Shown here: positions 1 to 35,085 of the stretch, one piece after another
Layout of the letters: each line of letters starts with the position of its first letter
Numbering within the stretch: the first letter of the stretch is position 1
NCBI GenBank assembly: GCA_903836515.1
Contig: CAILQW010000031.1
Span: 1 to 36,275 of the forward strand
Direction: 5' to 3'
Length of the DNA: 36,275 bases
DNA from: Candidatus Omnitrophota bacterium
GTDB lineage: Bacteria > Omnitrophota > Gorgyraeia > Zapsychrales > Fredricksoniimonadaceae
Program-made: the position numbers and the translations under genes
Notes under the pieces: model-generated
Databases searched by the model: none
Told to the model about the DNA's origin: nothing
The model's input: only the letters and a program-made list of their open reading frames with translations

Positions 1-3000
1 GAGATCGTGATCGGGCCGTTGTAGCTGGTGTCGCCCGAAAGGTTCAACGCCCCCATGACCGTCAACGAATCCGTCACCGCATCGCCCAGATACACATTGC
101 CGTCGACCTCAAGGTCTTTTTGCACATACAAACTTCCAGGCGTTGTGGCATGGTCAACGCTCGCGGCCACCGTCCCCTCCAGTATCCGCGCGGCACCGCC
201 CGACACATCCAGCCGGCCGCCGGGTGTGACGGAACCCACCCCTACATTACCGCTCGTCGCATCGACAAAAAACTTGTTGGTATTCACCGCCAGATTACCG
301 GTCATGGCGGTGTTACCATTCGCCGCTGTCACAACAAACTTGTTTGTATTCACTTCCACATCACCCGTCACCTGGGCTATGCCGCCCACCAGCGCATTCC
401 CCGTCAAAGATGCCTGCGCGCCATAGATCGTCCCGTCGGTCTGGATATTGCCCTTCACGTCCAGCTTCTGGCCCGGCACTGTCGTCCCGATCCCCACATT
501 CCCCGCGGTCGTCACCAGCGCATCCCCGGACACCGGACTCAAGATCAATCCGCCGGTCATGGTGTCGCCGGCTTTAAGGACTTTCGTGCTATCCGTGCCA
601 AGAACATTCGTCAACAACGAACCATCGCCGTAGATCTTGCCGTCGACGACAAGATTACTCTTGATAGCCACGGCGGGTGTAGAACCTGCCGGGATCGCTG
701 GATTGACGCCGACCTGCAACAGGGCCACAGGTAACGTGGACCCGATGCCCACGTTACCCATCGTCGAAGTGATGGCATTGGTGGTGTCCACATTAAAGAT
801 CTGGGTGCCGTCGGCCTTACGCACAAGAAGCGCATTAGGATGGGTTGTCGAGATTGTGATCGGGCCGGTGTAGCTGGTGTCGCCGGAAAGGTTCAGTGCC
901 CCCATGACGGTCAAGGTATCCGTGACAGCATCCCCCAAATAAACATTGCCGTCGACCTCAAGGTCTTTCTGGACATACAAACTGCCGGGCGTTGTGGCAT
1001 GGTCAACGCTCGCGGCCACCGTCCCCTCCAGTATCCGCGCGGCACCGCCCGACACATCCAGCCGACCGCCAGGTGTGACGGAACCCACCCCTACATTACC
1101 GCTCGTCGCATCGACAAAAAACTTGTTGGTATTCACCGCCAGATTACCGGTCATGGCGGTGTTACCATTCGCCGCTGTCACAACAAACTTGTTTGTATTC
1201 ACTTCCACATCGCCCGTCACCTGGGCCATGCCGCCCACCAGCGCATTCCCCGTCAAAGATGCCTGCGCCCCATAGATCGTCCCGTCGGTCTGGATATTGC
1301 CCTTCACGTCAAGCTTTTGGGCCGGCACTGTGGTGCCAATACCCACATTTCCCATGGTCGAGGTAATCGCGCTCTGGGTGTCCACATTGAAGATCTGCGT
1401 GCCGTCGGCCTTGCGGACAAGAAGCGCATTGGGATGCGTGGTCGAGACCGTGATCGGGCCGTTATAGCTGGTGTCCCCCGAAAGATTCAACGCCCCCATG
1501 ACCGTCAACGAATCCGTCACCGCATCGCCCAGATACACATTGCCGTCGACCTCAAGGTCTTTCTGCACATACAAACTGCCGGGAGTCGTGGCATGATCCA
1601 CGCTCGCGGCCACCGTCCCCTCCAGTATCCGCGCGGCACCGCCCGACACATCCAGCCGGCCGCCGGGTGTGACCGAGCCAACGCCCACATTGCCGCTCGT
1701 AGCGTCTACGAAAAATTTATTCGTGTTAACCGCCAGATCCCCCGCCACATGTGCCGTGCCGCCAACGACGGCGTTCCCCGTCAGGGATGCCTCTGCACCA
1801 TAGATCGTGCCATCAGTCTGGATATTGCCCTTCACGTCAAGCTTCTGTGCCGGTACGGTGGTGCCAATGCCCACATTCCCCATGGTCGAGGTAATGGCAT
1901 TTGTGGTATCTACATTAAAAATCTGGGTCCCGTCGGCCTTACGGACCAGAAATGCATTAGGATGCGTTGTTGAAATCGTGATCGGCCCCGTATAATTCGT
2001 GTCGCCGGAAAGATTCAAGGCACCTGTCACGGTCAATGTATCGGTCACCGCGTCACCCAAATAAACATTGCCGTCGACCTCAAGGTCTTTCTGGACATAC
2101 AAACTGCCGGGTGTCGTGGCATGATCCACGCTCGCGGCCACGCCCCCCTCCAGGATCCGCGCGACACCCCCCGACACATCCAGCCGGCCGCCGGGTGTGA
2201 CCGAACCCACGCCCACATTGCCGCTCGTGGCATCCACAAAGAACTTGTTGGTATTCACCGTCAGGTCACCGGCCATCGCGGCATTACCATTCACGGCAGT
2301 CACCACGAACTTGTTGGTATTGACGCGCACATCACCCGTCACATCAGCCGTACCGCCCACCAGCGCATTCCCCGTAAGCGACGCTTGGGCGCCGTAAATG
2401 GCTCCGTCGGTCTGAATATTGCCCTTCACCTCGAGCTTTTGGGCCGGGGCTGTCGTCCCCACGCCCACATTCCCCATGGCCGAGCTGATGCCGTTGACTG
2501 TATCCACATTGAAAATCTGGGTGCCATCGGTTTTGCGGACAAGCAGGGCATTCACATCCGTGGTGGTGATGCTCACCGCACCGCCGTAACCCGTATTCCC
2601 GGAAAGGGTCAGGCTTCCGGCCACGGTCAGATTGTCGGTCACGGCGTCGCCCAGGTAGACACTACCGTCGACTTCAAGGTCGTTTTGCACGTACAAACTG
2701 CCGGGTGTCGCGGCATGGTCCACGCTCGCGGCCGAGGACCCGTTGACGATCCGGGCCGCGCCGCCGCTCACCTCGAACTTCCCGCCGGGCGCGCTTGATC
2801 CGATACCCACATTGCCGGCAGACGTGATCGTCATCTTCTCTGTGCCGTCGCCGGCCCCGAAATGGATGTCCGCATCTCCCAGGGAAATGCGCGCATTGCC
2901 GGCCCCGCCAAGAATATTGAGATAACCGGAAGCCATGGACGGACGCAGGGCATTGTCCGTCCCCAGGCGCGTGCCTGCCCCCGTGCCGGCATAATAAACG

Positions 3001-3362
3001 CCGCCCGCATGCACATCGCCCGCCACGTCAAGTCCCGCGCGCGGGACGGCCGTACCGATGCCGATATTCCCGTCGACCACAAGGCTCTGGGGCGAGGTGC
3101 ATTTGGTGAGTGTACCGTTGAGGCGAAGGCACCCCTTGAGGGTCATGTTGCCGGTGGAATCGATGCCGGCGGCCGGTGCGGTGGCAGAGTCCTGGACAAC
3201 AAAAGAACTTGAACCATCGGTCGAATCAAGAACGGCTTCAATGTTGGCAGCAAAAGTAGATGGCACGACGATGAAAACGAGGAAGATCAGAAAAAGGAAA
3301 AGAAATGCGGCGCGCAGAACGCGCGTATATAAGTAAAAATTATTAAAATGCGGACGGGACAT
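1..3362 (-). CDS. Large secreted repeat protein, N-terminal part (runs off left edge)
   Basis: One reading frame stays open from the ATG at 3362 to base 1, so about 1120 codons are visible and the C-terminus lies outside. An in-frame TAG four codons upstream fixes this as the first ATG; no good ribosome site is seen. Residues 1-40 look like a signal peptide: a basic start, then a Leu/Phe/Ile-rich core ending in PSTFA. After it come phrases such as GNVGIGTTVPAQKLDVKGN, TPGSLYVQKDLEVDGNVYLG, TQIFNVDT and NTNKFFVDATSGNVGVG, repeated in blocks of about 198 residues. The insertion-bearing block also has YGDGSLLTNV and KAGDTMTGGL, a style known from phage tail-fibre and surface-fibre proteins. The composition (Gly, Val, Asn, Thr; almost no Cys) suggests an extended beta-rich fibre. 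A secreted or surface adhesin-like role is inference. Plus-strand frames here are mirror images of this gene. Confidence 0.85.
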   Translation of the reverse strand, partial: MSRPHFNNFYLYTRVLRAAFLFLFLIFLVFIVVPSTFAANIEAVLDSTDGSSSFVVQDSATAPAAGIDSTGNMTLKGCLRLNGTLTKCTSPQSLVVDGNIGIGTAVPRAGLDVAGDVHAGGVYYAGTGAGTRLGTDNALRPSMASGYLNILGGAGNARISLGDADIHFGAGDGTEKMTITSAGNVGIGSSAPGGKFEVSGGAARIVNGSSAASVDHAATPGSLYVQNDLEVDGSVYLGDAVTDNLTVAGSLTLSGNTGYGGAVSITTTDVNALLVRKTDGTQIFNVDTVNGISSAMGNVGVGTTAPAQKLEVKGNIQTDGAIYGAQASLTGNALVGGTADVTGDVRVNTNKFVVTAVNGNAAMAGDLTVNTNKFFVDATSGNVGVGSVTPGGRLDVSGGVARILEGGVAASVDHATTPGSLYVQKDLEVDGNVYLGDAVTDTLTVTGALNLSGDTNYTGPITISTTHPNAFLVRKADGTQIFNVDTTNAITSTMGNVGIGTTVPAQKLDVKGNIQTDGTIYGAEASLTGNAVVGGTAHVAGDLAVNTNKFFVDATSGNVGVGSVTPGGRLDVSGGAARILEGTVAASVDHATTPGSLYVQKDLEVDGNVYLGDAVTDSLTVMGALNLSGDTSYNGPITVSTTHPNALLVRKADGTQIFNVDTQSAITSTMGNVGIGTTVPAQKLDVKGNIQTDGTIYGAQASLTGNALVGGMAQVTGDVEVNTNKFVVTAANGNTAMTGNLAVNTNKFFVDATSGNVGVGSVTPGGRLDVSGGAARILEGTVAASVDHATTPGSLYVQKDLEVDGNVYLGDAVTDTLTVMGALNLSGDTSYTGPITISTTHPNALLVRKADGTQIFNVDTTNAITSTMGNVGIGSTLPVALLQVGVNPAIPAGSTPAVAIKSNLVVDGKIYGDGSLLTNVLGTDSTKVLKAGDTMTGGLILSPVSGDALVTTAGNVGIGTTVPGQKLDVKGNIQTDGTIYGAQASLTGNALVGGIAQVTGDVEVNTNKFVVTAANGNTAMTGNLAVNTNKFFVDATSGNVGVGSVTPGGRLDVSGGAARILEGTVAASVDHATTPGSLYVQKDLEVDGNVYLGDAVTDSLTVMGALNLSGDTSYNGPITI
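102..2666 (-). repeat. Tandem array of about 594-bp coding repeats
   Basis: Using the recurring GTCGAC that encodes the Glu-Val-Asp-Gly junction as an anchor, copies begin at 102, 951, 1545, 2073 and 2667. The intervals are 849, 594, 528 and 594 bases, all multiples of three. The standard unit is 198 codons. The 528-base unit lacks exactly 22 codons, and the 849-base unit carries 85 extra codons. Units at 102 and 951 are almost identical at DNA level over several hundred bases, while the copy nearest the N-terminus (2667 onward) is clearly diverged. This pattern fits expansion by unequal recombination with recent homogenisation. Confidence 0.9.
503..757 (-). repeat. 85-codon insertion module within one repeat unit
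   Basis: Relative to the 594-base unit, the leftmost full unit carries about 255 extra bases between two versions of the phrase GNVGIG. The extra part encodes an Ala/Pro-rich stretch, then YGDGSLLTNV and KAGDTMTGGL, found nowhere else in the visible protein. The two flanking GNVGIG phrases could have served as recombination points for module gain. Boundaries are approximate because the flanks are themselves repeats. Confidence 0.7.
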
Positions 3363-3572
3363 CAGGGGTTTCTATATCTCGCGCGTTTTAATTAAAAATA
3401 ATTATTCCTCTTTAATGATTTAATACTAACAAATAGGAATAGTAGTTCAATAAAATACCAAGAAATTTTAATAGGCCCAACATGACGGTGATCTCTCGTC
3501 GTGCTTGTTTAGCGCCTAAAATCTTTCTACCTGCCTTAACGCGCAAAAACACATGGCACCAAACAGACTCCC

Positions 3573-3683
3573 GTCGTCCTGAGCGAAGCGAAGAACCGCA
3601 ACACCTTGATATTGATTGATTTATGTTAGAGGGAAGCATGACTTCGCGGGATTCTTCGCCGCCTCGCGGCTGAGAATGACGGC
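3573..3683. repeat. Small inverted-repeat element (REP/MITE-like) in the 3363-3750 gap
   Basis: The left end reads GTCCTGAGCGAAGCGAAGAA and the right end, inverted, reads TTCTTCGCCGCCTCGCGGC followed by TGAGAATGAC. The ends are imperfect inverted copies about 70 bases apart, and each holds its own short GC hairpin. A related half-copy occurs at 25383. Such non-coding repeats are dispersed in many environmental genomes. The rest of the 388-base gap is AT-rich, and no convincing gene was found in it. Confidence 0.55.
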
Positions 3684-3750
3684 AAGGATCAACTGTGAAA
3701 ATACTTCTTTACGTCAATGAGCGGCCACGAACACTGCTCTGAACAAGACG

Positions 3751-5454
3751 TTAGAGTTTACCGCGGGTTTGAAGATCGAGGAGCATGTCTTTGGCGGCAA
3801 GGCAGGCATTGGCGCTGGAACCGCCATTTTCCAAAAGCAGGACAAAAACCAGGGTGTGTCCGGGAGTCTTGACCACCCCGGCAAAAGAAGCATGATCCGC
3901 CTTCCCTACCCCGGCCTGGGCGGTGCCGGTCTTGCCGTAGATCTCAAACCCGGGAAGATCGAGGACATGGGCGGTCCCGTTATCCATCTGGACCACCTGG
4001 TGCAGGCCGTTCTTAAGGACACTCCAGACTTCAGGACGCAGGACCGCCACGCGGGTCGACCCGGAAATAAACTGTTTTTCAACGCCGCCCAGCGACTTTT
4101 TGATGTGCAGCAAAGGAATACGCCCTTCATTCTCGACGATCGCCATAAGGCGGGCCAGCTGGATCGGCGTGGCGAGCACATAGCCCTGACCGATGGACAT
4201 GTTGACCGTATCCCCGCGGAACCATTGACGGAAGGCCGCATGCCGCGGGATCGTGCCCTTGGCCTCGTAAGGCAGGTCGACCCCCGTACGCTCGCCCAGC
4301 GCGAAAAGCGAGGCGTAATGCGCGATCATATCAGGCCCGATGGCCAGACCAATGTGAAAGAAATACTCGTTGGCGGAATGGGCAATGGCCTGGATCAAAT
4401 CCTGCGATCCAAACGCGTGCGGAAATTTGTACCTGTGGTTGCCCAGGTCAAAATAGCCGGGGCAATCGAAGGAGGTCTCGGGCGTGATCTTGCGTTCCTG
4501 AAGCCCGCCGGAAGCCACCGCGACCTTGAACACCGATCCCGGCGGAAACTGGGCCGACACGGCGCGGTTAAGCAAGGGAGAACTGGCATCCTTCAGATAC
4601 GCCCCCGCCTGGGTGCGGTCATCGCGGCTGGAAAAATCATTCGGGTCAAACGCGGGAGAACTGACAAGCGCCAGCACCTCGCCATTGGCCGGATCCAACA
4701 CCACCACCGCGCCTTTGCGGCCGGCCATGGCCTGATGCGCCGCCTCCTGGATATCCTTGTCAATGGTCAGGACAAGATCCCGCCCCTCGGATGGCTCACG
4801 CACACTGAGCAGGCGCACCTGCTGGCCGCGGCTGTTGACCTGGATCTGGCGGCCGCCTGGCGCGCCCCGCAGATCGTCATCGTAATATTCCTCGACACCG
4901 GAATAACCCACCGGATCGTCCGCGCTGTAGCCATACGCCTCGATCTCCCGCATCTTTTCCTCGTTCGCCCGGCCGACATAACCGACCACATGCGCCCCCG
5001 CCGCACCCTCAGGATAATGCCGGCGAAACCGCTCCATGACCAGAAGGCCCGGGTACTGGTAGGCATTTTCTTCGACGAGGATCGCCTGCTGGCGCGAAAT
5101 ATCCCACGCCACGATGACCGGCGAGAACGCGGTCAGCCGGTTCTTTTTATATCTTGTCTCAAGCTCCGCCGTCCCCAAGTTGAGTGCGCCCGAAAGAAAA
5201 CGGAACACATCCCGCTTGTCCCTGATATCCTGCGGCAACAGCGCCACACAAAAATTCTTTTCATTGTCTGCCAGGACATTGCCGTTGCGGTCAAGGATGC
5301 GCCCGCGCTTGCCCTCGAAAGGAATGACCCGGATGGAATTGCTTTCGCTCTGACGGTAAAAATACCCCCCGCAAATGACCTGAATATAAAAGAGGTCGAG
5401 GGCCATGAGAATAAACAGGCCGATGATGACATTGCGGATCACGTTGATGTGCAT
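3751..5454 (-). CDS. mrdA: Penicillin-binding protein 2 (elongasome transpeptidase)
   Basis: PBP2 cross-links peptidoglycan during cell elongation, anchored in the inner membrane with its catalytic part in the periplasm. This 567-residue protein has one N-terminal membrane segment (about 8-28), a PBP dimerisation region with the typical GKRGRILDRNG (48-58), and a C-terminal transpeptidase domain. All three active-site motifs are visible: SVFK with nucleophile Ser307, Ser-Ala-Asn at 360-362 and Lys-Thr-Gly at 508-510. The frame is open 21 codons further upstream, but that longer form would overlap mreD by 47 bases and place a hydrophilic Cys/Arg stretch before the membrane anchor; the ATG at 5454, 16 bases after the mreD stop, is preferred. 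It is the last gene of the mre cluster. rodA, its usual glycosyltransferase partner, is not next to it. Confidence 0.93.
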   Translation of the reverse strand: MHINVIRNVIIGLFILMALDLFYIQVICGGYFYRQSESNSIRVIPFEGKRGRILDRNGNVLADNEKNFCVALLPQDIRDKRDVFRFLSGALNLGTAELETRYKKNRLTAFSPVIVAWDISRQQAILVEENAYQYPGLLVMERFRRHYPEGAAGAHVVGYVGRANEEKMREIEAYGYSADDPVGYSGVEEYYDDDLRGAPGGRQIQVNSRGQQVRLLSVREPSEGRDLVLTIDKDIQEAAHQAMAGRKGAVVVLDPANGEVLALVSSPAFDPNDFSSRDDRTQAGAYLKDASSPLLNRAVSAQFPPGSVFKVAVASGGLQERKITPETSFDCPGYFDLGNHRYKFPHAFGSQDLIQAIAHSANEYFFHIGLAIGPDMIAHYASLFALGERTGVDLPYEAKGTIPRHAAFRQWFRGDTVNMSIGQGYVLATPIQLARLMAIVENEGRIPLLHIKKSLGGVEKQFISGSTRVAVLRPEVWSVLKNGLHQVVQMDNGTAHVLDLPGFEIYGKTGTAQAGVGKADHASFAGVVKTPGHTLVFVLLLENGGSSANACLAAKDMLLDLQTRGKL

Positions 5455-5470
5455 GAATAATATCCCGTGT

Positions 5471-5959
5471 TCAAAAACGCAGTATTTTCGCCGTGTCGCG
5501 CAGGCGCTCGAACACAAAGAGCGCCACGATCATGGTCGCCAGTATTTCAGGAAGCCAGACACTGCCCAGCACATCCAGCCATCGGATGTCCTCGAAGACC
5601 ATCTTGTACAAGAACGCCATGATGAGCGTATGCGCGCTTGTCACCGCAAACACCATCAACAGTTTGGACCCCGACGATCCGCGCTCATACCAGTTCTGGC
5701 GGATATACGTCGACAGGCAGGCGCAGACCATGTAGCTGAAAATGTGCGTGCCAAAAGGCATGGTGCTGAAACAATCCTTGATCGCGCCCCCGCACACGGC
5801 GGTCCAGAGGCTAAACCGTATGCCGGAGTAAAGGTTAAAGAAGATGACCAGAATGAGCATCAGGTGCGGATCCCCCCAGCGCCCGAAAAGGCTGAAGAGG
5901 CAGTATTCCAGCAATTGGAACAGAAAACACAACAGCGGGATGACGAGGATCTGGTTCAT
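5471..5959 (-). CDS. mreD: Rod shape-determining protein MreD
   Basis: This 162-residue, very hydrophobic protein has four to six likely membrane segments (for example residues 3-24, 33-48, 68-88, 100-120 and 130-150). That length and topology are typical of MreD, the integral membrane part of the MreBCD elongation complex. MreD sequences are poorly conserved, so the name rests mainly on position: directly after mreB and mreC and 16 bases before the PBP2 gene, all on the same strand. A cluster with mreB and mrdA makes other identities unlikely. Confidence 0.85.
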   Translation of the reverse strand: MNQILVIPLLCFLFQLLEYCLFSLFGRWGDPHLMLILVIFFNLYSGIRFSLWTAVCGGAIKDCFSTMPFGTHIFSYMVCACLSTYIRQNWYERGSSGSKLLMVFAVTSAHTLIMAFLYKMVFEDIRWLDVLGSVWLPEILATMIVALFVFERLRDTAKILRF

Positions 5960-6037: not shown

Positions 6038-6817
6038 TTACTTGACGATTAATACTTCCTCGATCTTGCCGACATCGACGGCTGGATCGACTTCGGCGCG
6101 GGCATCGGAAATGCCCCCGGGCGGATAAACGCGTGTCACCCGGCCCACCAGAAGCCCGGCGGGAAACGCCGTACTGATGGGCGAGGTCACGATCTCATCC
6201 CCCTCCTTGACATCGCTGTCCTGGGGCAGGTACGACAACCGGCACATGCCGGACAACGATCCGCTCAAAAGCCCGGCCTCGCGCGAACGCTGGTTGACCA
6301 CAGACACGCTGAAATTGGGGTCGTTGACCAGGATCACCTTGGAAGAATTTTCTGCCGTTTCCGCGACCTTGCCGGCCACGCCCAGGGCATTGAGGATCGG
6401 CATGCCCGGCTTGATGCCCTGACGGCTCCCCTTGTCGATCATGAGCGACGAATTCCAGTTGGCAGGATCGCGGGCAATGACGCGCGCGGCAGAACTCGTG
6501 AATGACTGCGACGACCTCATCCCCAGCAGGCGCTCCAGACGATCATTCTCCTCAAGCGCCTCATCGAGGCGGACAACCTGGGCCCTCAGCTTGAAATTTT
6601 CACGCTGGAATTTCTGATATTCGGCGTATGTCTTGCGGTAGGAAAGCAGGATCTGCACTTCCTTGAGAGGGCTGTTGGCCACGCTCACCCCTGACGCGGC
6701 CGCGCCCATGGTCTTCAGTTTGAGCCCGTGCCAGAAAGGCGAATTGAAAAAAAGAAGCCAGAACGGGGCGATAATGACAATGACGTAGATGAATTTTTTA
6801 GGGATTTTTTTTAGCAT
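6038..6817 (-). CDS. mreC: Rod shape-determining protein MreC
   Basis: MreC is the periplasmic scaffold linking cytoplasmic MreB to the cell-wall enzymes. The 259-residue protein has a short basic cytoplasmic start, one membrane segment (about 9-25), a coiled coil (about 60-98, rich in Glu, Arg and Leu) ending at RLLGM, and then the beta-rich C-terminal domain with GLLSGSLSGMC and AGLLVGRV, phrases typical of MreC. Length matches the family. It lies 61 bases after mreB; a GC hairpin occupies that gap just in front of the start codon and no purine-rich ribosome site is visible, so translation may depend on local structure. Confidence 0.93.
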   Translation of the reverse strand: MLKKIPKKFIYVIVIIAPFWLLFFNSPFWHGLKLKTMGAAASGVSVANSPLKEVQILLSYRKTYAEYQKFQRENFKLRAQVVRLDEALEENDRLERLLGMRSSQSFTSSAARVIARDPANWNSSLMIDKGSRQGIKPGMPILNALGVAGKVAETAENSSKVILVNDPNFSVSVVNQRSREAGLLSGSLSGMCRLSYLPQDSDVKEGDEIVTSPISTAFPAGLLVGRVTRVYPPGGISDARAEVDPAVDVGKIEEVLIVK

Positions 6818-6878: not shown

Positions 6879-7952
6879 TCAGAAATCCAGTTTGGCCTGT
6901 GCCATCAGGCGCTTGCGCAGATGCGCGGGCATGTTGAGGGTATCGCCGGTGCCCATGACAACCGCAATGGTCGGATCATCGGCCACATGAACCGGCAGGC
7001 CCGTCTCCTCGGCGACGCGCTTGTCGAGCCCGCGCAGGAGAGAGCCGCCTCCGGCCATGACAATGCCGCGGTCGATCAGGTCGGCCGCAAGCTCGGGCGG
7101 CGTGTGTTCAAGGGTCGATTTCGACGCGTCCACGATCGCCTGGACGGTGTCGGAAAGGGCTTCACGGATCTCGACAGATGTGATGGAAATGGTCTTGGGC
7201 AGGCCTGCGATCAGGTCGCGCCCGCGCACATCCATGGCCAGCTCCTCTTCGAGCGGATAGGCAGAACCGATGCGGATCTTGATCTCTTCGGCCGTGCGCT
7301 CGCCGATCATGATGTTATAGGTGCGGCGCAGATATTCCATGACCGCCAGATCCATCTCATCGCCCGCCACTTTGATCGACTTGGCATAGACGATGCCGCC
7401 CAGGGAAATGACCGCAAAATCCGTGGTGCCGCCGCCGATATCGATGATCATGTTGCCGCCCGGCTCCTGGACCGGAAGGCCCACGCCGATGGCCGCGGCC
7501 TTGGGCTGTTCGATCAAAATGACATTGCGGGCACCCGCGTGTTCCGCGGAATCGATGACCGCGCGCTTCTCGACCTCGGTGATTCCCGGCGGGATCGCGA
7601 TCACGATGGACGGACGCACCAGAAACCTGCGCGGCTGGACCTTCTTGATGAAATATTTGAGCATCGCCTCGGTCACTTCCGGGTCGGAAATAACGCCGTC
7701 TTTCATGGGACGGATCGCCACAATGCTTTCGGGGGTGCGGCCCAGCATGCGCTTGGCCTCATCGCCCACCGCCACAACACGGTTGGTGTCTTTTTCAATA
7801 GCCACGACGGACGGCTCGCACAGGACAACCCCTTCGCCCTTGACGAATACCAGCGTGGTGGCCGTGCCGAGGTCGATCCCCATGTCGTTGGAGAACATCC
7901 CCAGGACGTTTTCGTAAAGACCGCGCAAGAACTTGATGGCTTTCTGGATCAT
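6879..7952 (-). CDS. mreB: Actin-like cell-shape protein MreB
   Basis: MreB polymerises under the inner membrane and directs lateral wall growth. The 357 residues contain the actin-fold ATP motifs: phosphate-1 loop GIDLGTATT (25-33), phosphate-2 loop DIGGGTTDF, and the adenosine motif [10 protein letters not shown] near the C-terminus. The usual MreB start resembles MFSNDMG, found here at residue 19; the 18 extra residues form a possible amphipathic membrane helix. The upstream ATG is preceded by AAAAGGATGCC, a good ribosome site, so the longer form is preferred. It is the first gene of mreB-mreC-mreD-mrdA and is probably co-transcribed with them. Confidence 0.96.
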
Positions 7953-18667: not shown

Positions 18668-21478
18668 TCAAACATCGAATTTTCTTAATTCGTCATCCAC
18701 AAAAGGCCGGGCGGGATCGAGGATCTCGGCCATCACACGCCCCAGGGCGTCCTTGTAGGGCGCGCCAAAAATATCCGGTGCCGGCATCGGCGTTTTATCC
18801 CTGGAGATCGTCCTCAAACGCGCCTCGCGCAGGCTGTAAAGGCCGGCTTCAATGCGCCTGCCGGGATACGCTTCCGCCATCATATGAACATAGAGCGGCA
18901 GCTGGAAGGAACCAACCGCCTCGAATATTTCCCGGCGGCCGGCTTCCGGCGGCAGGGCCAATACCGGCGGCGGGACATCATCCGCCGTGCCGGTCTTGTA
19001 GTCGAGGACCAGTATCCCGCCCGCGCTGTCCTCCTCGACACGGTCGATCCTGGCCTTGAACCTGAATTCACCCGGCGGCAGGACGATCCGGGCCGTGTAT
19101 TCCTTCTCAAGCCCCAGGATCAGGCGGATCCCCGCGGCACGTTCACGCTCGACATCCAGGAAAGCGCGCAGTTTGTGTTCCATGACCCCGCGCACCAGAA
19201 ACGCCTGCGCGCGCATACGCCGGGCCAAAACTTCCTCAAAACGACGGTTGAAAACAGACCAGAGCCGTTTTTCAAATGTGTCCCCGAAATCCGGCGTGTG
19301 CCCTTCCAAAGGCTTGTAGAGTTCTTCCAGCAGGCCGTGCATGAAATTGCCGATCAAAACCGCATCAGGCTCGTCGAGAAGATCATCGCTTTCGCGCAGG
19401 CCAAGGACATAATCCGTGTAAAACGTATACGGGTTGGCCAGGTAGGCGTTGACACTGCTGGCCGAATAAGAGAAGCCCTGCAGGAACCTGATCATGGCCG
19501 GGGTCTTGGCCGCGGCGCGCGGACGCTGATCCGCACGGACCGCAAACCCCGCCCTTACGGCGGGGAAATGATCCGGCTTCCCGTCACGGACCTGTTTTTC
19601 CCAGACAAGTTCCTCGAGAAAACGGCTGGGCTCCTTCTCCTTGTTCTTCTGACACACCAAATGCACGCTGCGGGCGGAAGAAACGAGGCGCATGAACTGG
19701 TAACGCTGGATCTCCTCCTCAAGGCGCAGGCTGTCCAGGTCAAGCTGGCCCATGACCTCGCGCGGGATCAAGGACGCACGCACCCGGATGCTCGGCAAAA
19801 CCCCCTCATTCACGTCCATGACGATCACATGGTCGAAATCAAGCGAACGCGTTTCCTCAAGCCCCAGGATCTGCAGGCCCTTGAGCGGCGTACCTTTGAA
19901 GCGCACCATCTGGGCGCCGGCATTCTCCTCGAAAATTCGGAACAGGTCTTCCTGCGCAAAACTTTCGCCGCTGAAAGACGCCTCCCTGAACTGCGCACAC
20001 ACCTCGTACATCCGCGCGGCAATATTAAGGTTAAGGGGATAATGCCCCATGGTACTCCGCCGGGAGGTTTCATCCAGAAGCGGTTCCAGCGCCAGGGCAA
20101 AAGAAGCAAGGCTGCTGACCCCCTCCCACGCCTCCAGAAAAATCCTGTGGATTCCCCGGAGCATCCCGGCCAGGCTGTCCCGGCGTCCGTCAAGGCCCAT
20201 CCCGGCCAGTGTCGCAGCGGCTTCCTCAAAGATAATACGGTCCTCGAAAATATCCTCCAGCGCAAGAAAAGAACTTCCGGACGTCGCACCGCTCAGACGC
20301 CCCTTAAGGACCTCCTCGATCTTGTGAACCAGAACGCGCATGGCCGCCGCCCCCTCCGCACGGCCTTCCCACTGCAAATTCTTGACAAAGGGATGACGGA
20401 GCAGGGCCAGATAATCCCGGGCATAATAACGTCCATCCTTGCCCGACAGCTGTGCCTGGAACACCGCCTGCAGAAGAAGATACAGGCTGCCGCGGCGCAA
20501 AGGATACCCCATGGATACGTTAAAGCCGTCCGCCTCCAGGGGCAACGCCGACAACAGCGGCACCAGCGCTTCGGTATCCGGCAGCACAACAACGGTGCGG
20601 TGCTTGTCAACGATACCAGCCAGGATATCCCGCACCATGGCGGCCCCGGCATGCGTATCCGCGGCGGTATAGATCTTCAGGTCGAACGACACCGGCGTGG
20701 GAACGACCCCCTCCTTCAGTTCACAGCCGAACTGCCCGGCGATATGCTCCAGCACCCGCCATTTCCGCTGGTCGCCCTGGAAGATCAGCGTGGCCTTGTC
20801 CGCGGCATGGAGCTGACGGACCACCCCGGCTTCCGTTTTGTGAAAATAAAAAAAATTGGCGAAGATGATCTCGTCGTAACGGGACGCGTCCCAGGCCCCC
20901 GCGTTGCGGGCGGCACGACGGTATTGCCCGCCGCGTGTGGTCCGGCCGGCCTCCTTCAGGCGGGCATGAAAAACATCCCTGAGCGTCAGGACCTTCTCCA
21001 GCATGCGATTGATATTCTCGGGAACAGGATAGCCGATGCGCGCACTTTCCTGGATAGGCGTCAACGCGGCCGGGCCAACATCCTCCAGGTCGAGCTGGTT
21101 GATGAAATCCAGGATATCTCCGGCCCAAGGCAGGAATTTCGCAAACGTTTCACGGCCCTGGAGCAGTTCCGGAGCCAGGTCACGCGCCAGGCTATAGAGC
21201 GTGAAACGGTCCTCCAGGTCAGAGGCGGCCCTGAGTTCACCGGTCACGTTGGCCAGCTCGTTCATGAACTCATCCATCGTATAAAAACGGGGCGGCATGA
21301 AGGCCCCTCCCGCACGGCGCGCGAGTTCGCGTTTTAAAAAATGCGCCGGGCGTTTGCCGCCGAAAACAACAGCCAGCCTCCCGGGATCCCGCCCGGCGGC
21401 GGCATGCCCGCGCTGAATATGATCCGCGAGTTCCGCCATAAAAGGTTTTGTGAAATCCGTTGTAAATATGCGCGCCAT
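18668..21478 (-). CDS. addB: AddB-like ATP-dependent nuclease subunit (PD-(D/E)XK)
   Basis: AddB is the partner of AddA in the AddAB double-strand-break processing complex. The 936 residues show a degenerate helicase-like body (LGLEETRSLDFDHVIVMDVN at mid-protein, as in UvrD-like pseudo-helicases) and a C-terminal PD-(D/E)XK nuclease. Expected nuclease residues are Asp812, Asp826 and Lys828 in VLDYKTG, with Gln859 downstream, plus an upstream His in NFMHGLLEELY. No intact Walker A was found. The cysteines needed for the AddB iron-sulphur cluster were not obvious. The ATG at 21478 follows GGAGGTGTG and overlaps the addA stop by one base (TGATG). A RecC-like or generic exonuclease V subunit name is the alternative. 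Confidence 0.87.
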   Translation of the reverse strand: MARIFTTDFTKPFMAELADHIQRGHAAAGRDPGRLAVVFGGKRPAHFLKRELARRAGGAFMPPRFYTMDEFMNELANVTGELRAASDLEDRFTLYSLARDLAPELLQGRETFAKFLPWAGDILDFINQLDLEDVGPAALTPIQESARIGYPVPENINRMLEKVLTLRDVFHARLKEAGRTTRGGQYRRAARNAGAWDASRYDEIIFANFFYFHKTEAGVVRQLHAADKATLIFQGDQRKWRVLEHIAGQFGCELKEGVVPTPVSFDLKIYTAADTHAGAAMVRDILAGIVDKHRTVVVLPDTEALVPLLSALPLEADGFNVSMGYPLRRGSLYLLLQAVFQAQLSGKDGRYYARDYLALLRHPFVKNLQWEGRAEGAAAMRVLVHKIEEVLKGRLSGATSGSSFLALEDIFEDRIIFEEAAATLAGMGLDGRRDSLAGMLRGIHRIFLEAWEGVSSLASFALALEPLLDETSRRSTMGHYPLNLNIAARMYEVCAQFREASFSGESFAQEDLFRIFEENAGAQMVRFKGTPLKGLQILGLEETRSLDFDHVIVMDVNEGVLPSIRVRASLIPREVMGQLDLDSLRLEEEIQRYQFMRLVSSARSVHLVCQKNKEKEPSRFLEELVWEKQVRDGKPDHFPAVRAGFAVRADQRPRAAAKTPAMIRFLQGFSYSASSVNAYLANPYTFYTDYVLGLRESDDLLDEPDAVLIGNFMHGLLEELYKPLEGHTPDFGDTFEKRLWSVFNRRFEEVLARRMRAQAFLVRGVMEHKLRAFLDVERERAAGIRLILGLEKEYTARIVLPPGEFRFKARIDRVEEDSAGGILVLDYKTGTADDVPPPVLALPPEAGRREIFEAVGSFQLPLYVHMMAEAYPGRRIEAGLYSLREARLRTISRDKTPMPAPDIFGAPYKDALGRVMAEILDPARPFVDDELRKFDV

Positions 21479-24400
21479 CACACCTCCACCACGGCAGATT
21501 CGCCGATAAAGACAAGATATCCTCTCACGCGCCGCCCCGGATAAATTTCACGGAGGATCCCCATATAGGCCTGGACCTGTTCGCCGCCGGCCTCTTCCGC
21601 GGCACGGCTCAACTTGAAATCAATGACGGTCACGCTGTCGGGGTTCACCAAAAGCCGGTCAACCCGCCGCGTGCGCCCGAAACGGTCCACACACTCCTGT
21701 TCTGTCAGCACCCGGGCATCACCGGCTTCAAAGAAAGGCCTGACACGTTCATCCGCCAGCAGACGCCGCAGCGGTTCACGCATCCCCGCCTCCTCCGTTC
21801 CCAGGGCCGTTGGCACGGCCAGCGCCGCCTCAAGGGCCGCATCCAGCCCGCCGGCCGGTACCGCACCGATGCGCGCCAGGACGGCATGAAACGCCTCGCC
21901 GGTACGGCATTCAGCGCGCGCGAACAAGGCCCGTGCATCCATGAACTCGTCATTTAAAAACGCGATCCAGTCGCGGCATGCGCAAGGCGCCAGTTCAACC
22001 GGCGCCGGCCCTGCGTCCCTGTCCTTGCGGGGGTAACCCGCGGCAGGCTCACCCACCGACAGCAAAGGCGCGGGAAAAAGATGCCGCGCCAGATTCACGC
22101 CCTTGCCAGCCCGCGGCGGGACATACACATACATTTCACAGGCGGCACGCGTCAGGGCCACATAGACATTGTTCAATTCCGAAAAAAAGACCGCCATGCG
22201 TTCCTCGACATCCAGTTCCTCGGCGAGGAGCGAGTAACGGGTATGGCAGGCATTGAAATGATAGAGCGCCAGGCCATCCTCACCGGGCCGCAAGACATAA
22301 TTCAAGGCCTTCTTCCCGGAGGACGCCCCGCGGGACAAGGACATCGTCAGAAACGGCAGGATGACCACCCGGAATTCCAGGCCCTTGGCCTTATGGACTG
22401 TCATGACCTGGACCGTATCCCCCCCCGGCACATCAACATAAAGTTCGGACCCTTCCAGCGCGTCATAATGCTCCAGGAAAGAGGCCATGTCGGGAAATTC
22501 AACTTCCTTCTTCTTGACCAGTTCCAGAAAATGCATGAAGAACGCCTGGTCGCCCGGAAAATTCTCGACCACCCCCAGCCGCCGATAAAAACTCGCCACC
22601 GTCTCATACAAGGGATAAAGCCCCGCATGACTGAAAAAATCGTCGATCAAGTTTTCCCATATCTCCGGGAAACGGCTGCGAAATGCCGTATAAAGATACC
22701 CCTTGCGCTCCTGGCGCCACGCCAGGATGAAATCCTGCACGGCTTCCGGCGGCATGCCGGCGGCAGCCCCAAAGATACGCCCCTGGATGAACTCCCCGAA
22801 GGCCGCGTTATCCACGGGCGCCGCCAGAAAATGCAGGAACGCCGTCACTTCACGCAGCAGCAGATGCTCCTTGATATCAAGGGTACGTTCCGAGGATGAG
22901 GGGATGGGCGGATCCGCCTCCAGGAGCCAGCGGGTCACTTCCTCAACCTGGTCATTCTTGCGGACCAGAATGCCGATGTCACGCCAGGCAAAACGCGTCC
23001 GCAGGTCAGCCAGGCGTGCCATAAGCCTGCGGCGGGCATCCTCGGAAACTTCCTCCCGGCCGGAACCTTCCAGGAGCTCCACCCGGACACAACCTTCAGG
23101 ATCCGGCTGTACCACTTCCTGTGCCGCCCCGGCGTAGACACGGCGCAGTTCATCAAAATCATCCGCCCTCGCCGGCACAAGCGCCGCTCCGTCCCTGCCG
23201 GGGGCGCGCATAAGCGCCTCAAGATTATCCAGGCTAAAGACACTGTTGTTAAAGGTGACAATGCTGCGATGACTACGGCGGCTGGTGTTCAAGATCTCGC
23301 AGGAAGGATGATATCCGGGCGCGGCATACCGGGCGCGGACATCGTCGAAGAGCCGCGTATCCCCGCCGCGGAATGAATAAATGGCCTGTTTCTTGTCGCC
23401 GACGTAAAACAAGGTCCCGCCGCGGGCAATCCCATCCTCGGGCAGAACGCAGAGGTTTTCCCACTGCAGGCGGCTGGTGTCCTGGAATTCGTCAAAAAGA
23501 TAATGCTCGAAACGTGTGGAGAGGCGGTAATAAAGCTCTTCGGGGGCCACACCCTCCTCGTAAACCTGGCGCGCCCTGGCGTTGAGCTCGCCCAAGAACA
23601 TGATGTCCTCGCGCAGGCACATCCCCACCAGATGCCGGCGGACATACTCCCACAGCCTCACATACGGGTCGTAGACATGGTTCACCTCCAGATCCGCGGC
23701 CTCCATAAAACCCTTCTGGATCGCGGCCCAGAGGTCGTGATGCCGCGGCAAAAGGACCAGGCTCTTTGTTGCCGGGATATCCTTCCCCGGCTCAAAATAC
23801 CCCGACAATCCCTGGGCAAAACGGAACCCGTTCTGATGGGCCTGAACAAACCCGGCGATACTTTTGACAAAAGTTTTGTGCGCGCCTTCAGGCATGTCTG
23901 CCGCCAGATCACGCACGGCGGCCACCACCTTGCGCTTGACACTGATCATGTCCGCGGGCACCTTCCCCGGCGGCACGAAGTCCCGCGCGTAGGTGTTATA
24001 TTCCCCCCACAGTTGTTCCAGGGTATCCAGCACCACATCCCGGGGGATCCAGGCGGACCGCGCCTCGACCAAGAGCATGCTCGTTAGAAAATCGTCAAAG
24101 GCACGGCGCAGGACCTTGTCGGAGGCTGCATCGTCGATGAGTTCGTCAAGGGCCAGCGCCAGGTATTCACGGGCATTGGTTTTGATGCGGAAATTGGCGG
24201 TCAAGCCGATCTGGAACGCGGAGCTGACCAGCAGGGAATTGATGAACTTGTCAATGGTCTCAACCTGGAAATAATTGTAGTTGCGCAGGATGGCATCAAT
24301 AACTTTGGAGGCAAATTCACGCGCCTCACCGGAGGGCATACCGATGCCTTCCAGGATCAGGCGTTCTTCCTCAGGCGGCATCACCCCCAGCGCCAGTTCC

Positions 24401-24633
24401 TTGAGGAACCGGAGGATCCGCTCTTTCATCTCGAAAGCGGCCTTGTTCGTGAAGGTGATCGCCAGGATGGTATGAATAGGCGGAACGGTGCGCTCACGCG
24501 TCAAATGCAGGACAAGCTGAACATAGCGTTTGGCGAGCGCATATGTTTTGCCGGATCCGGCGGAAGCCTCGACCACGCGCACTTCGGGGAACGCCAGGCC
24601 GTGAGGCACAGAGTCAGCGCACCCGGGGTTCAT
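21478..24633 (-). CDS. addA: AddA/RecB-like helicase-nuclease
   Basis: AddA-type proteins unwind and degrade DNA ends and help load recombinase. The 1051 residues contain Walker A in EASAGSGKT (22-30), TFTNKAAFEMKERI (motif Ia), LFDEFQDTS (Walker B), VGDKKQAIYSFRGG (motif III), VMTVHKAKGLEFRVVILPF (motif V) and NVYVALTRA (motif VI). A C-terminal nuclease follows with Asp992, Asp1005 and Lys1007 (VIDFK) and a Gln...Tyr pair about 15 residues later. Helicase and nuclease motifs are therefore both intact. Its ATG overlaps the upstream secreted-protein gene by four bases (ATGA), and it is coupled to addB. RecB is the alternative family name, but no recC or recD is present. Confidence 0.92.
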   Translation of the reverse strand: MNPGCADSVPHGLAFPEVRVVEASAGSGKTYALAKRYVQLVLHLTRERTVPPIHTILAITFTNKAAFEMKERILRFLKELALGVMPPEEERLILEGIGMPSGEAREFASKVIDAILRNYNYFQVETIDKFINSLLVSSAFQIGLTANFRIKTNAREYLALALDELIDDAASDKVLRRAFDDFLTSMLLVEARSAWIPRDVVLDTLEQLWGEYNTYARDFVPPGKVPADMISVKRKVVAAVRDLAADMPEGAHKTFVKSIAGFVQAHQNGFRFAQGLSGYFEPGKDIPATKSLVLLPRHHDLWAAIQKGFMEAADLEVNHVYDPYVRLWEYVRRHLVGMCLREDIMFLGELNARARQVYEEGVAPEELYYRLSTRFEHYLFDEFQDTSRLQWENLCVLPEDGIARGGTLFYVGDKKQAIYSFRGGDTRLFDDVRARYAAPGYHPSCEILNTSRRSHRSIVTFNNSVFSLDNLEALMRAPGRDGAALVPARADDFDELRRVYAGAAQEVVQPDPEGCVRVELLEGSGREEVSEDARRRLMARLADLRTRFAWRDIGILVRKNDQVEEVTRWLLEADPPIPSSSERTLDIKEHLLLREVTAFLHFLAAPVDNAAFGEFIQGRIFGAAAGMPPEAVQDFILAWRQERKGYLYTAFRSRFPEIWENLIDDFFSHAGLYPLYETVASFYRRLGVVENFPGDQAFFMHFLELVKKKEVEFPDMASFLEHYDALEGSELYVDVPGGDTVQVMTVHKAKGLEFRVVILPFLTMSLSRGASSGKKALNYVLRPGEDGLALYHFNACHTRYSLLAEELDVEERMAVFFSELNNVYVALTRAACEMYVYVPPRAGKGVNLARHLFPAPLLSVGEPAAGYPRKDRDAGPAPVELAPCACRDWIAFLNDEFMDARALFARAECRTGEAFHAVLARIGAVPAGGLDAALEAALAVPTALGTEEAGMREPLRRLLADERVRPFFEAGDARVLTEQECVDRFGRTRRVDRLLVNPDSVTVIDFKLSRAAEEAGGEQVQAYMGILREIYPGRRVRGYLVFIGESAVVEV

Positions 24634-34217: not shown

Positions 34218-34462
34218 AGAGAATCTACCTGATCACGGCGTTGCGGATGATCGTTCCCCTGATCTTCGTCGGGCCGCCGTTGTTCTAAAGTGCCGTGACA
34301 TCTGTCTGGGTCAAGGCGCGGTTGTAGATGCGGACGTCATCGATGGAGCCTTTCCACAAATAAGTGCCACCTCCCACGAAGTTACCTATGGACCCTGCTA
34401 TAGGACTTGGTAAAGACAATACAGCGTTTCCTGTAAATGTTCCCTGCAGCATGCCATCTACA
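34198..34462 (-). repeat. Duplicated segment, copy A (3' part of LamG gene)
   Basis: This stretch is nearly identical to 35866-36132. It covers the last 59 codons of the LamG reading frame and its downstream flank. The copies differ by scattered substitutions near the start and by one inserted base in the other copy. The repeats are direct and enclose the LamG 5' part, the small ORF and hicAB. Confidence 0.9.
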
Positions 34463-35085
34463 TAAAGATAAGCATGACTGCTATCCCAGGTTCCTACGAC
34501 ATGATGCCATTCGTTATCATTATAAGTTGAGCTTGAAGAAGCCACATCTCTCGAGAAAGGAGCGAAATTAGTAAATAAATGCAAATAACCCCCTGAACCA
34601 CTAGTAGTAGCATTTGCCATCAATATCCCAATTCTATTGGCACTGATCCCAATTTCTACGACCCTTGCATTCCCATATGTTTGTGCCCCTCCTTTAATCC
34701 AAACACCGGGTGATCCTGTATTAACCACCAATGCTGTGGACGACGGGATAGACACATACTGACTGCTCGCCGGATCGAAACTCATCGCCGCAGTAGCCCT
34801 GCCAAATCTGTCCGTTGCCGCTGTCGCGCCGTGTATCGTGCCATCAATACCTTTACCACTATAATCCTTAGCATTACCATCCAGCTTCCAATGCCCCACC
34901 AACCCGGTAACGATATCAGCCGCCTGCACCGGCGTGGCCAGAAGGATAATGAATACGACGAGTGTAAGGATGGGGCCCCTGCCTGCCGGCAAACAGGTCA
35001 GACCCGTCCACAACAAATTATTTAAATGGAGTAAAGATGAAAACCATGTGGCGCGGCGCGACGTGGGAGGAATACAGAAGCTCAT
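34285..35085 (-). CDS. Secreted LamG (concanavalin A-like) domain protein, premature stop
   Basis: The 266-residue frame has a signal-like segment ILTLVVFIILLATPVQA (about 39-55) and then a LamG-type sandwich: GLVGHWKLDGNAKDYSGKG, SFDPASSQYVSIPSS, WHHVVGTWDSSHAYLYVDG and KGSIDDVRIYNRALT. Such domains bind glycans or other surfaces outside the cell. The reading frame before the signal segment includes a degenerate copy of the TGCCGGCA palindrome (encoding CLPAGRG), so the true start is unclear: the ATG at 35085 gives an odd 38-residue leader with no ribosome site. The frame ends at TAG where the sister copy has TAC (Tyr); 19 more sensible codons follow to a TAG at 34225, so the protein is probably truncated by a point mutation or sequencing error. 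Confidence 0.8.
   Translation of the reverse strand: MSFCIPPTSRRATWFSSLLHLNNLLWTGLTCLPAGRGPILTLVVFIILLATPVQAADIVTGLVGHWKLDGNAKDYSGKGIDGTIHGATAATDRFGRATAAMSFDPASSQYVSIPSSTALVVNTGSPGVWIKGGAQTYGNARVVEIGISANRIGILMANATTSGSGGYLHLFTNFAPFSRDVASSSSTYNDNEWHHVVGTWDSSHAYLYVDGMLQGTFTGNAVLSLPSPIAGSIGNFVGGGTYLWKGSIDDVRIYNRALTQTDVTAL
34979..34998. repeat. Degenerate TGCCGGCA palindrome inside LamG 5' region
   Basis: CCTGCCTGCCGGC matches one arm of the perfect palindrome at 7989; the other arm is altered to AAACAGG. It is followed by TCAGACCCG, a fragment of the second repeat family, so both types are joined here. Confidence 0.6.

Follow-up and report, generated by a model that had tools for sequence, protein, structure and literature searches.

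A candidate MAT-like surface fibre gene with in-frame stalk repeats beside the cell-shape genes of an Omnitrophota genome

The minus-strand reading frame at the left end of contig C31 probably belongs to a chromosomal gene for a secreted surface fibre, of which it encodes the N-terminal part. The design resembles that of phage tail fibres and of the mosaic adhesive trimer (MAT) fibres of the predatory bacterium Bdellovibrio. The window, meaning the whole stretch of DNA analysed, was this entire contig of 36,275 bp, and its host assembly is a MAG of 2.02 Mb in 67 contigs with an estimated completeness of 96%. Our best reading is a trimeric surface adhesin of a MAT-like type whose phage-type tips can be exchanged, where MAT-like signifies a shared signature motif; membership of the MAT fibres by descent would hang on the head domain. 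Omnitrophota are uncultured and are suspected to be predators or parasites. We know of no account of their means of attachment to other cells, and a search of the available literature returned no report of such fibres in the phylum. A fibre family that resembles the prey-recognition fibres of Bdellovibrio, with a conserved locus and tips shared with the phage tail-fibre pool, would be a concrete candidate for attachment in Omnitrophota. The features of the window are listed in Table 1.

Table 1. Coordinates of the fibre gene, its parts and the conserved neighbouring genes in the window.
Feature	Positions	Strand	Basis
First 1,120 codons of the fibre gene (5' part), open at contig edge	3..3362	-	ORF list
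Signal peptide, about 38 residues, MSRPHFNNFYLYTRVLRAAFLFLFLIFLVFIVVPSTFA	3249..3362	-	sequence pattern
Conserved head domain, 39 residues, IEAVLDSTDGSSSFVVQDS...IDSTGN	3132..3248	-	orthologue alignment
N-terminal region before repeats; first GNIGIG..P capping-type motif at residue 98	2796..3131	-	
Unit 1, 198 codons, diverged	2202..2795	-	
Unit 2, 176 codons, 22 missing at about 1736/1737	1674..2201	-	
Unit 3, 198 codons	1080..1673	-	
Unit 4, 283 codons	231..1079	-	
Additional 85 codons within unit 4, including a separate capping-type GNVGIG..P motif and LVVDGKIY motif	504..758	-	
Unit 5, first 76 codons, cut by contig end	3..230	-	
Homogenised tract, exact 140-nt copy of 1072-1211	223..362	-	
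Homogenised tract, exact 140-nt copy of 223-362	1072..1211	-	
pbp2-type transpeptidase (PBP_dimer + Transpeptidase), conserved upstream neighbour	3751..5517	-	
mreD	5471..5959	-	
mreC	6038..6817	-	
mreB	6879..7952	-	

The initial annotation had described a frame with a signal peptide, open across all 3362 bases and running off the left edge, and this description holds: the frame starts with ATG, continues without a stop and is still open at position 1. Since position 1 is the end of the contig, the frame is ended by the assembly rather than by the window edge and cannot be traced further. Searches of the host genome for the rest of the gene, using DNA, protein and tip domain, returned separate small proteins only. 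dN/dS between the repeat units was well below 1, which supports real coding, and the last 21 codons shared by units 2 and 3 carried 15 silent changes (of about 16 silent sites) with no amino-acid change. The plus-strand ORFs that overlap the gene were dismissed as shadows cast by a third codon position rich in G+C (GC3 0.70). The word giant, used for this protein in the initial annotation, went too far, as at least 1,120 residues are seen and the complete syntenic orthologues have 1,686 (genome G017) and about 1,687 (genome G007, including an N gap). Judged from these orthologues of about 1,690 aa, the full protein is probably between about 1,700 and a few thousand residues long. A head-bearing relative of another family in the same order has more than 5,109 residues; it is a repeat-built frame of more than 5,109 codons that is itself open at its contig end (L180:2348-17674, G206:C13).

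The signal peptide is of the n/h/c type by sequence pattern, and its layout was the same in all aligned orthologues. The head that follows it was surveyed in 285 Omnitrophota genomes with a completeness of at least 80%. It was found in 20 of them, 15 belonging to the window's order and five more to its class. Among named genomes, close relatives of this N-terminal part came from Candidatus Omnitrophota MAGs at 17 of 18 loci, the remaining one being from Muiribacteriota.

A head-bearing fibre gene lay directly after pbp2 in nine of the 23 family genomes in which pbp2 was found (G000, which is the window's genome, and G001, G007, G008, G010, G017, G025, G030 and G031), and this position was kept across six genera of the family. 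Several other family genomes had unrelated genes after pbp2, and for the head-bearing genes of more distant relatives pbp2 was not found within 8 kb of flanking sequence. No natural stop was reached in seven of the nine syntenic copies. The frame ran off a contig end in G000, G010, G025 and G030, and the copies in G008 and G031 had N gaps and ran off or ended at a contig end. In G001, a species of the same genus as the window, the copy was interrupted by a repeated element. The same 129-140 nt of this element end three contigs (G001:C44:1-140, in L022; C27:1-140; C5:1-129), and its other frame resembles a transposase start (MPWKVINKMDLKSELIQNWNNG). Such a fibre family also explains these recurrent short-read assembly breaks, which hide the part of the gene that would name the target. 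The complete G017 orthologue has few long repeats and the same design.

The scanned genes of the 36-kb contig included the housekeeping genes mreB, mreC, pbp2, lgt, an aroA-type gene and an ileS-type synthetase but no cluster of phage genes. Between pbp2 and the start of the fibre gene, a gap of 388 nt contains an imperfect inverted element at 3571-3690 (GTCGTCCTGAGCGAAGCGAAGAA ... ATTCTTCGCCGCCTCGCGGCTGAGAATGACGG), the core of which occurs once in the genome. The upstream GAGCGAAGCGAAGAA element was considered as a genome-wide repeat and rejected, having a single occurrence in the genome. Elsewhere in the window, adjacent genes for a UvrD-type helicase and a PD-(D/E)XK nuclease resemble an AddAB-type pair (18668-24633), and a secreted protein of the LamG lectin type, encoded close to the contig's right end (34285-35085), matches a phage virion structural family. 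A genome of the same genus as the window carried many clustered fibre genes with VGIGT motifs (L023 and L024, G004:C91:10000-49000), the largest frame having 2,983 codons.

Repeat units were delimited by anchoring on the PGGRLDVSGG motif. Start-to-start spacings were 594, 528, 594 and 849 nt, that is 198, 176, 198 and 283 codons, followed by a stub of 76 codons, and these agree with the initial annotation of 198-codon units with one variant lacking 22 codons and one having 85 more. The exact 140-nt match covers the junctions of units 3/4 and 4/5. Units 3 and 4 were 91.4% identical across their 198 shared codons (dS 0.34), with no differences in the last 43 codons. Unit 5 was 95.2% identical to unit 3 over its 76 codons, and unit 2 was 83% identical to units 3 and 4. 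Unit 1 was 68-75% identical to the other units with dS of 1.0-1.4, in keeping with its initial description as a diverged N-terminal unit, and silent divergence between units 1 and 2 was nearly saturated. Consequently, the terms near-identical and homogenised apply to tracts such as the exact one in units 3 and 4, but not to whole units. In permutation tests on shared runs of silent sites, the start of unit 3 against the start of unit 5 (R2-R4) gave p = 1e-4, this being one of six pairs, and an adjacent register pair gave p = 0.012. The corresponding values were p = 0.007 for units 2 and 4 and p = 0.017 for units 3 and 4. Relatives also contained in-frame duplications (for example, 1,559 nt at 95.6% in L079). 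The proposal of recombination among the repeats thus finds its footprints in in-frame offsets, patchy silent identity and the run-length tests. The simplest reading would be purifying selection combined with local conversion or unequal exchange between units, although part of the conversion signal could also arise from a recent tandem duplication that diverged unevenly, and mis-assembly of the contig within the repeats is possible.

The fibre sequence is all-beta and contains eleven capping-type motifs of the form GNVGIG...P...L.V, compared with none in 200 shuffles. Its best match to a solved structure by sequence was the Bdellovibrio MAT fibre Bd2133 (8OND, E 1.2e-5), in which the motif has the same form (VGINTAAPLQKL and VGIGATAPTAKL); matches to MAT structures were short and lay mostly within this motif. 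The unit profile matched a solved phage tail fibre (9CUY, E 0.006), and its match to the "cell wall surface anchor" entry 8ON4 was not significant (E 0.25). The G017 orthologue matched 8OL4 and 8OJN, each with E 0.004. From their names and numbers, we take 8OND, 8ON4, 8OL4 and 8OJN to be entries of one MAT study. PHROGs tail-fibre families were matched with E down to 1e-27, and a related protein was present in 124 phage records, the top ones with E 1e-8 to 3e-14. The capping-loop consensus published for MAT fibres (VG..X..P...L type; PMC10769870) resembles the motif of the window protein. An AlphaFold monomer model of the repeat units was all-beta with a poor pLDDT of 50 and gave no significant fold match. 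Pfam matches of the window protein (PATR and others) were marginal and were judged to reflect chance or composition.

The two complete syntenic orthologues, from G007 and G017, end in different tip families, and distinct C-terminal tips were present in four complete head-bearing relatives (these two, L082 and L093). The tip of G007 was modelled with a pLDDT of 90.6 as a phage tail-fibre beta-sandwich, and the model had 200 matches with E <= 0.001 among predicted viral proteins, several of them named tail fibre. Relatives of this tip were encoded in 86 viral-contig stretches. Its best solved fold was a phage capsid spike (E 0.0016), and the Bd2133 structure was absent among the 50 fold matches listed for it. 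By sequence, neither the G007 nor the G017 tip family had a significant solved relative. The G007 tip recurs in L093, an Omnitrophota head-bearing protein, and in two small secreted proteins encoded by the window's genome. The G017 tip recurs in L082 and in one small protein of that genome. Proteins with a signal peptide, one capping-type motif and a phage-type tip, lacking the stalk, were seen in the same genome at L097:1357-1824 (G000:C51:16094-16561) and L098:1342-1860 (G000:C46:10096-10614). Pfam searches of the four complete relatives found no autotransporter barrel, YadA anchor, sortase, type IX sorting or S74 domain, and two of the four were also scanned with NCBIfam for sorting and anchor domains. 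The C-terminal secretion-sorting domain that the initial annotation had envisaged was found by neither Pfam nor NCBIfam in these relatives, which carry a tail-fibre tip instead. The S74 domain (PF13884) had no match in the assembled part of the host genome, the C-terminus of the window protein lying beyond the contig, and was present in 12 of 32 family genomes.

Three features support the initial view of a surface fibre: the signal peptide, the all-beta repeats related in sequence to tail fibres and MAT fibres, and the phage-fibre-type tips of syntenic orthologues. The signal peptide would direct secretion through the inner membrane, and the conserved head would keep the fibre at the cell surface. 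Three chains would wind into a beta rod, as suggested by homology, and the variable tip, judging from the orthologues, may bind a ligand, such as a glycan, on surfaces or on other cells. In-frame stalk repeats would exchange sequence by recombination, such that stalk length could be altered with the frame intact. With each species represented by one genome, the cell-to-cell variation in length proposed in the initial annotation, and any effect of it on adhesion or phage attachment, would be a possibility only. A role in predation, drawn by analogy from PMC10066038 and PMC10769870, neither of which is known to have dealt with this protein, is speculation. On a broader and tentative view, which we consider possible rather than probable, an Omnitrophota order has a dedicated MAT-like fibre locus beside its cell-elongation genes, where recombination lengthens and shuffles the stalk and the tip is swapped with phage tail-fibre tips, leaving lineages, perhaps cells, with different targets, possibly prey.

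Other explanations were weighed against this fibre. The same repeats could form a structural stalk or coat (a surface layer, a cell-cell spacer or a sheath) with no binding tip, which we consider unlikely. The tip of the window protein lies beyond the assembled part, and Omnitrophota are reported to encode giant, poorly annotated surface proteins, one of which was proposed to form a coat (PMC10066038). However, both complete syntenic orthologues and two more complete head-bearing relatives have distinct tips, and one orthologue tip is predicted to fold like a phage receptor-binding tip. It is rather more doubtful that the gene is real and that the unit number and homogenised tract are short-read assembly artefacts, the repeat structure being otherwise. 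The contig does end inside an array containing an exact 140-nt repeat, and contig ends, N gaps or a mobile-element end also interrupt six other syntenic copies; yet the units differ enough (83-91% identity) for mostly unique joins, the frame is open throughout, and the unlike units 1 to 4 could not derive from the collapse of one unit. The complete G017 orthologue, with few long repeats and the same design, also speaks against this explanation.

A prophage or tailocin tail-fibre gene that lies beside the shape genes by chance would account for the matching phage tail-fibre profiles and tip folds and for the presence of the same tip families in phages. The signal peptide, the housekeeping genes of the contig with no phage gene cluster among those scanned, and the conservation of the pbp2-adjacent position across six genera make this very unlikely. 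Even less credence was given to a type V adhesin (autotransporter or trimeric autotransporter) or one anchored by a sorting signal. Such repeat-built adhesins vary in length (PMC8859334) and the weak PATR (passenger repeat) match exceeded its Pfam cut-off by about 1 bit, but the four complete relatives contained no barrel, YadA anchor, sortase or type IX sorting domain.

Among known systems, the giant surface ORFs of Omnitrophota (PMC10066038) come from the same phylum and encode large surface proteins suspected in attachment. They differ in exceeding 20 kb and in having membrane helices and other domains, and the available part of that source does not mention the fibre family. BadA-type trimeric autotransporter adhesins (PMC8859334) are long trimeric repeat adhesins reshuffled by recombination, as the window fibre would be, whereas no autotransporter or YadA-type anchor was found in its complete relatives. 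Periscope proteins (PMC9704523) are also repeat-built surface rods in which recombining repeats may alter length. That class is defined by monomeric folds, highly identical repeats and observed number variation, whereas the window fibre is expected to be a trimer, its repeats are identical in patches, and each species is represented by one genome. Phage tail fibres and tailspikes, including cyanophage S74 (endosialidase chaperone) fibres, share the repeat sequence and tip fold but differ from the window fibre in its signal peptide, its chromosomal housekeeping location and the lack of phage genes nearby. The MAT fibres of Bdellovibrio bacteriovorus (PMC10769870) are similarly secreted, about 1,000 residues or longer and beta-rich in the stalk, with a V-G-I-G/N..P...L capping-type loop as in the solved Bd2133. 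In both, one end is conserved and the tips are exchanged, the wider group having tips of the S74 type as well as others. The window fibre differs in its head, which has 39 residues and is found mostly in one Omnitrophota order, compared with the beta-rich MAT head of about 130 residues that directly follows the signal peptide, in the long in-frame repeat units of its stalk and in the position of its gene after pbp2 in a shape-gene cluster.
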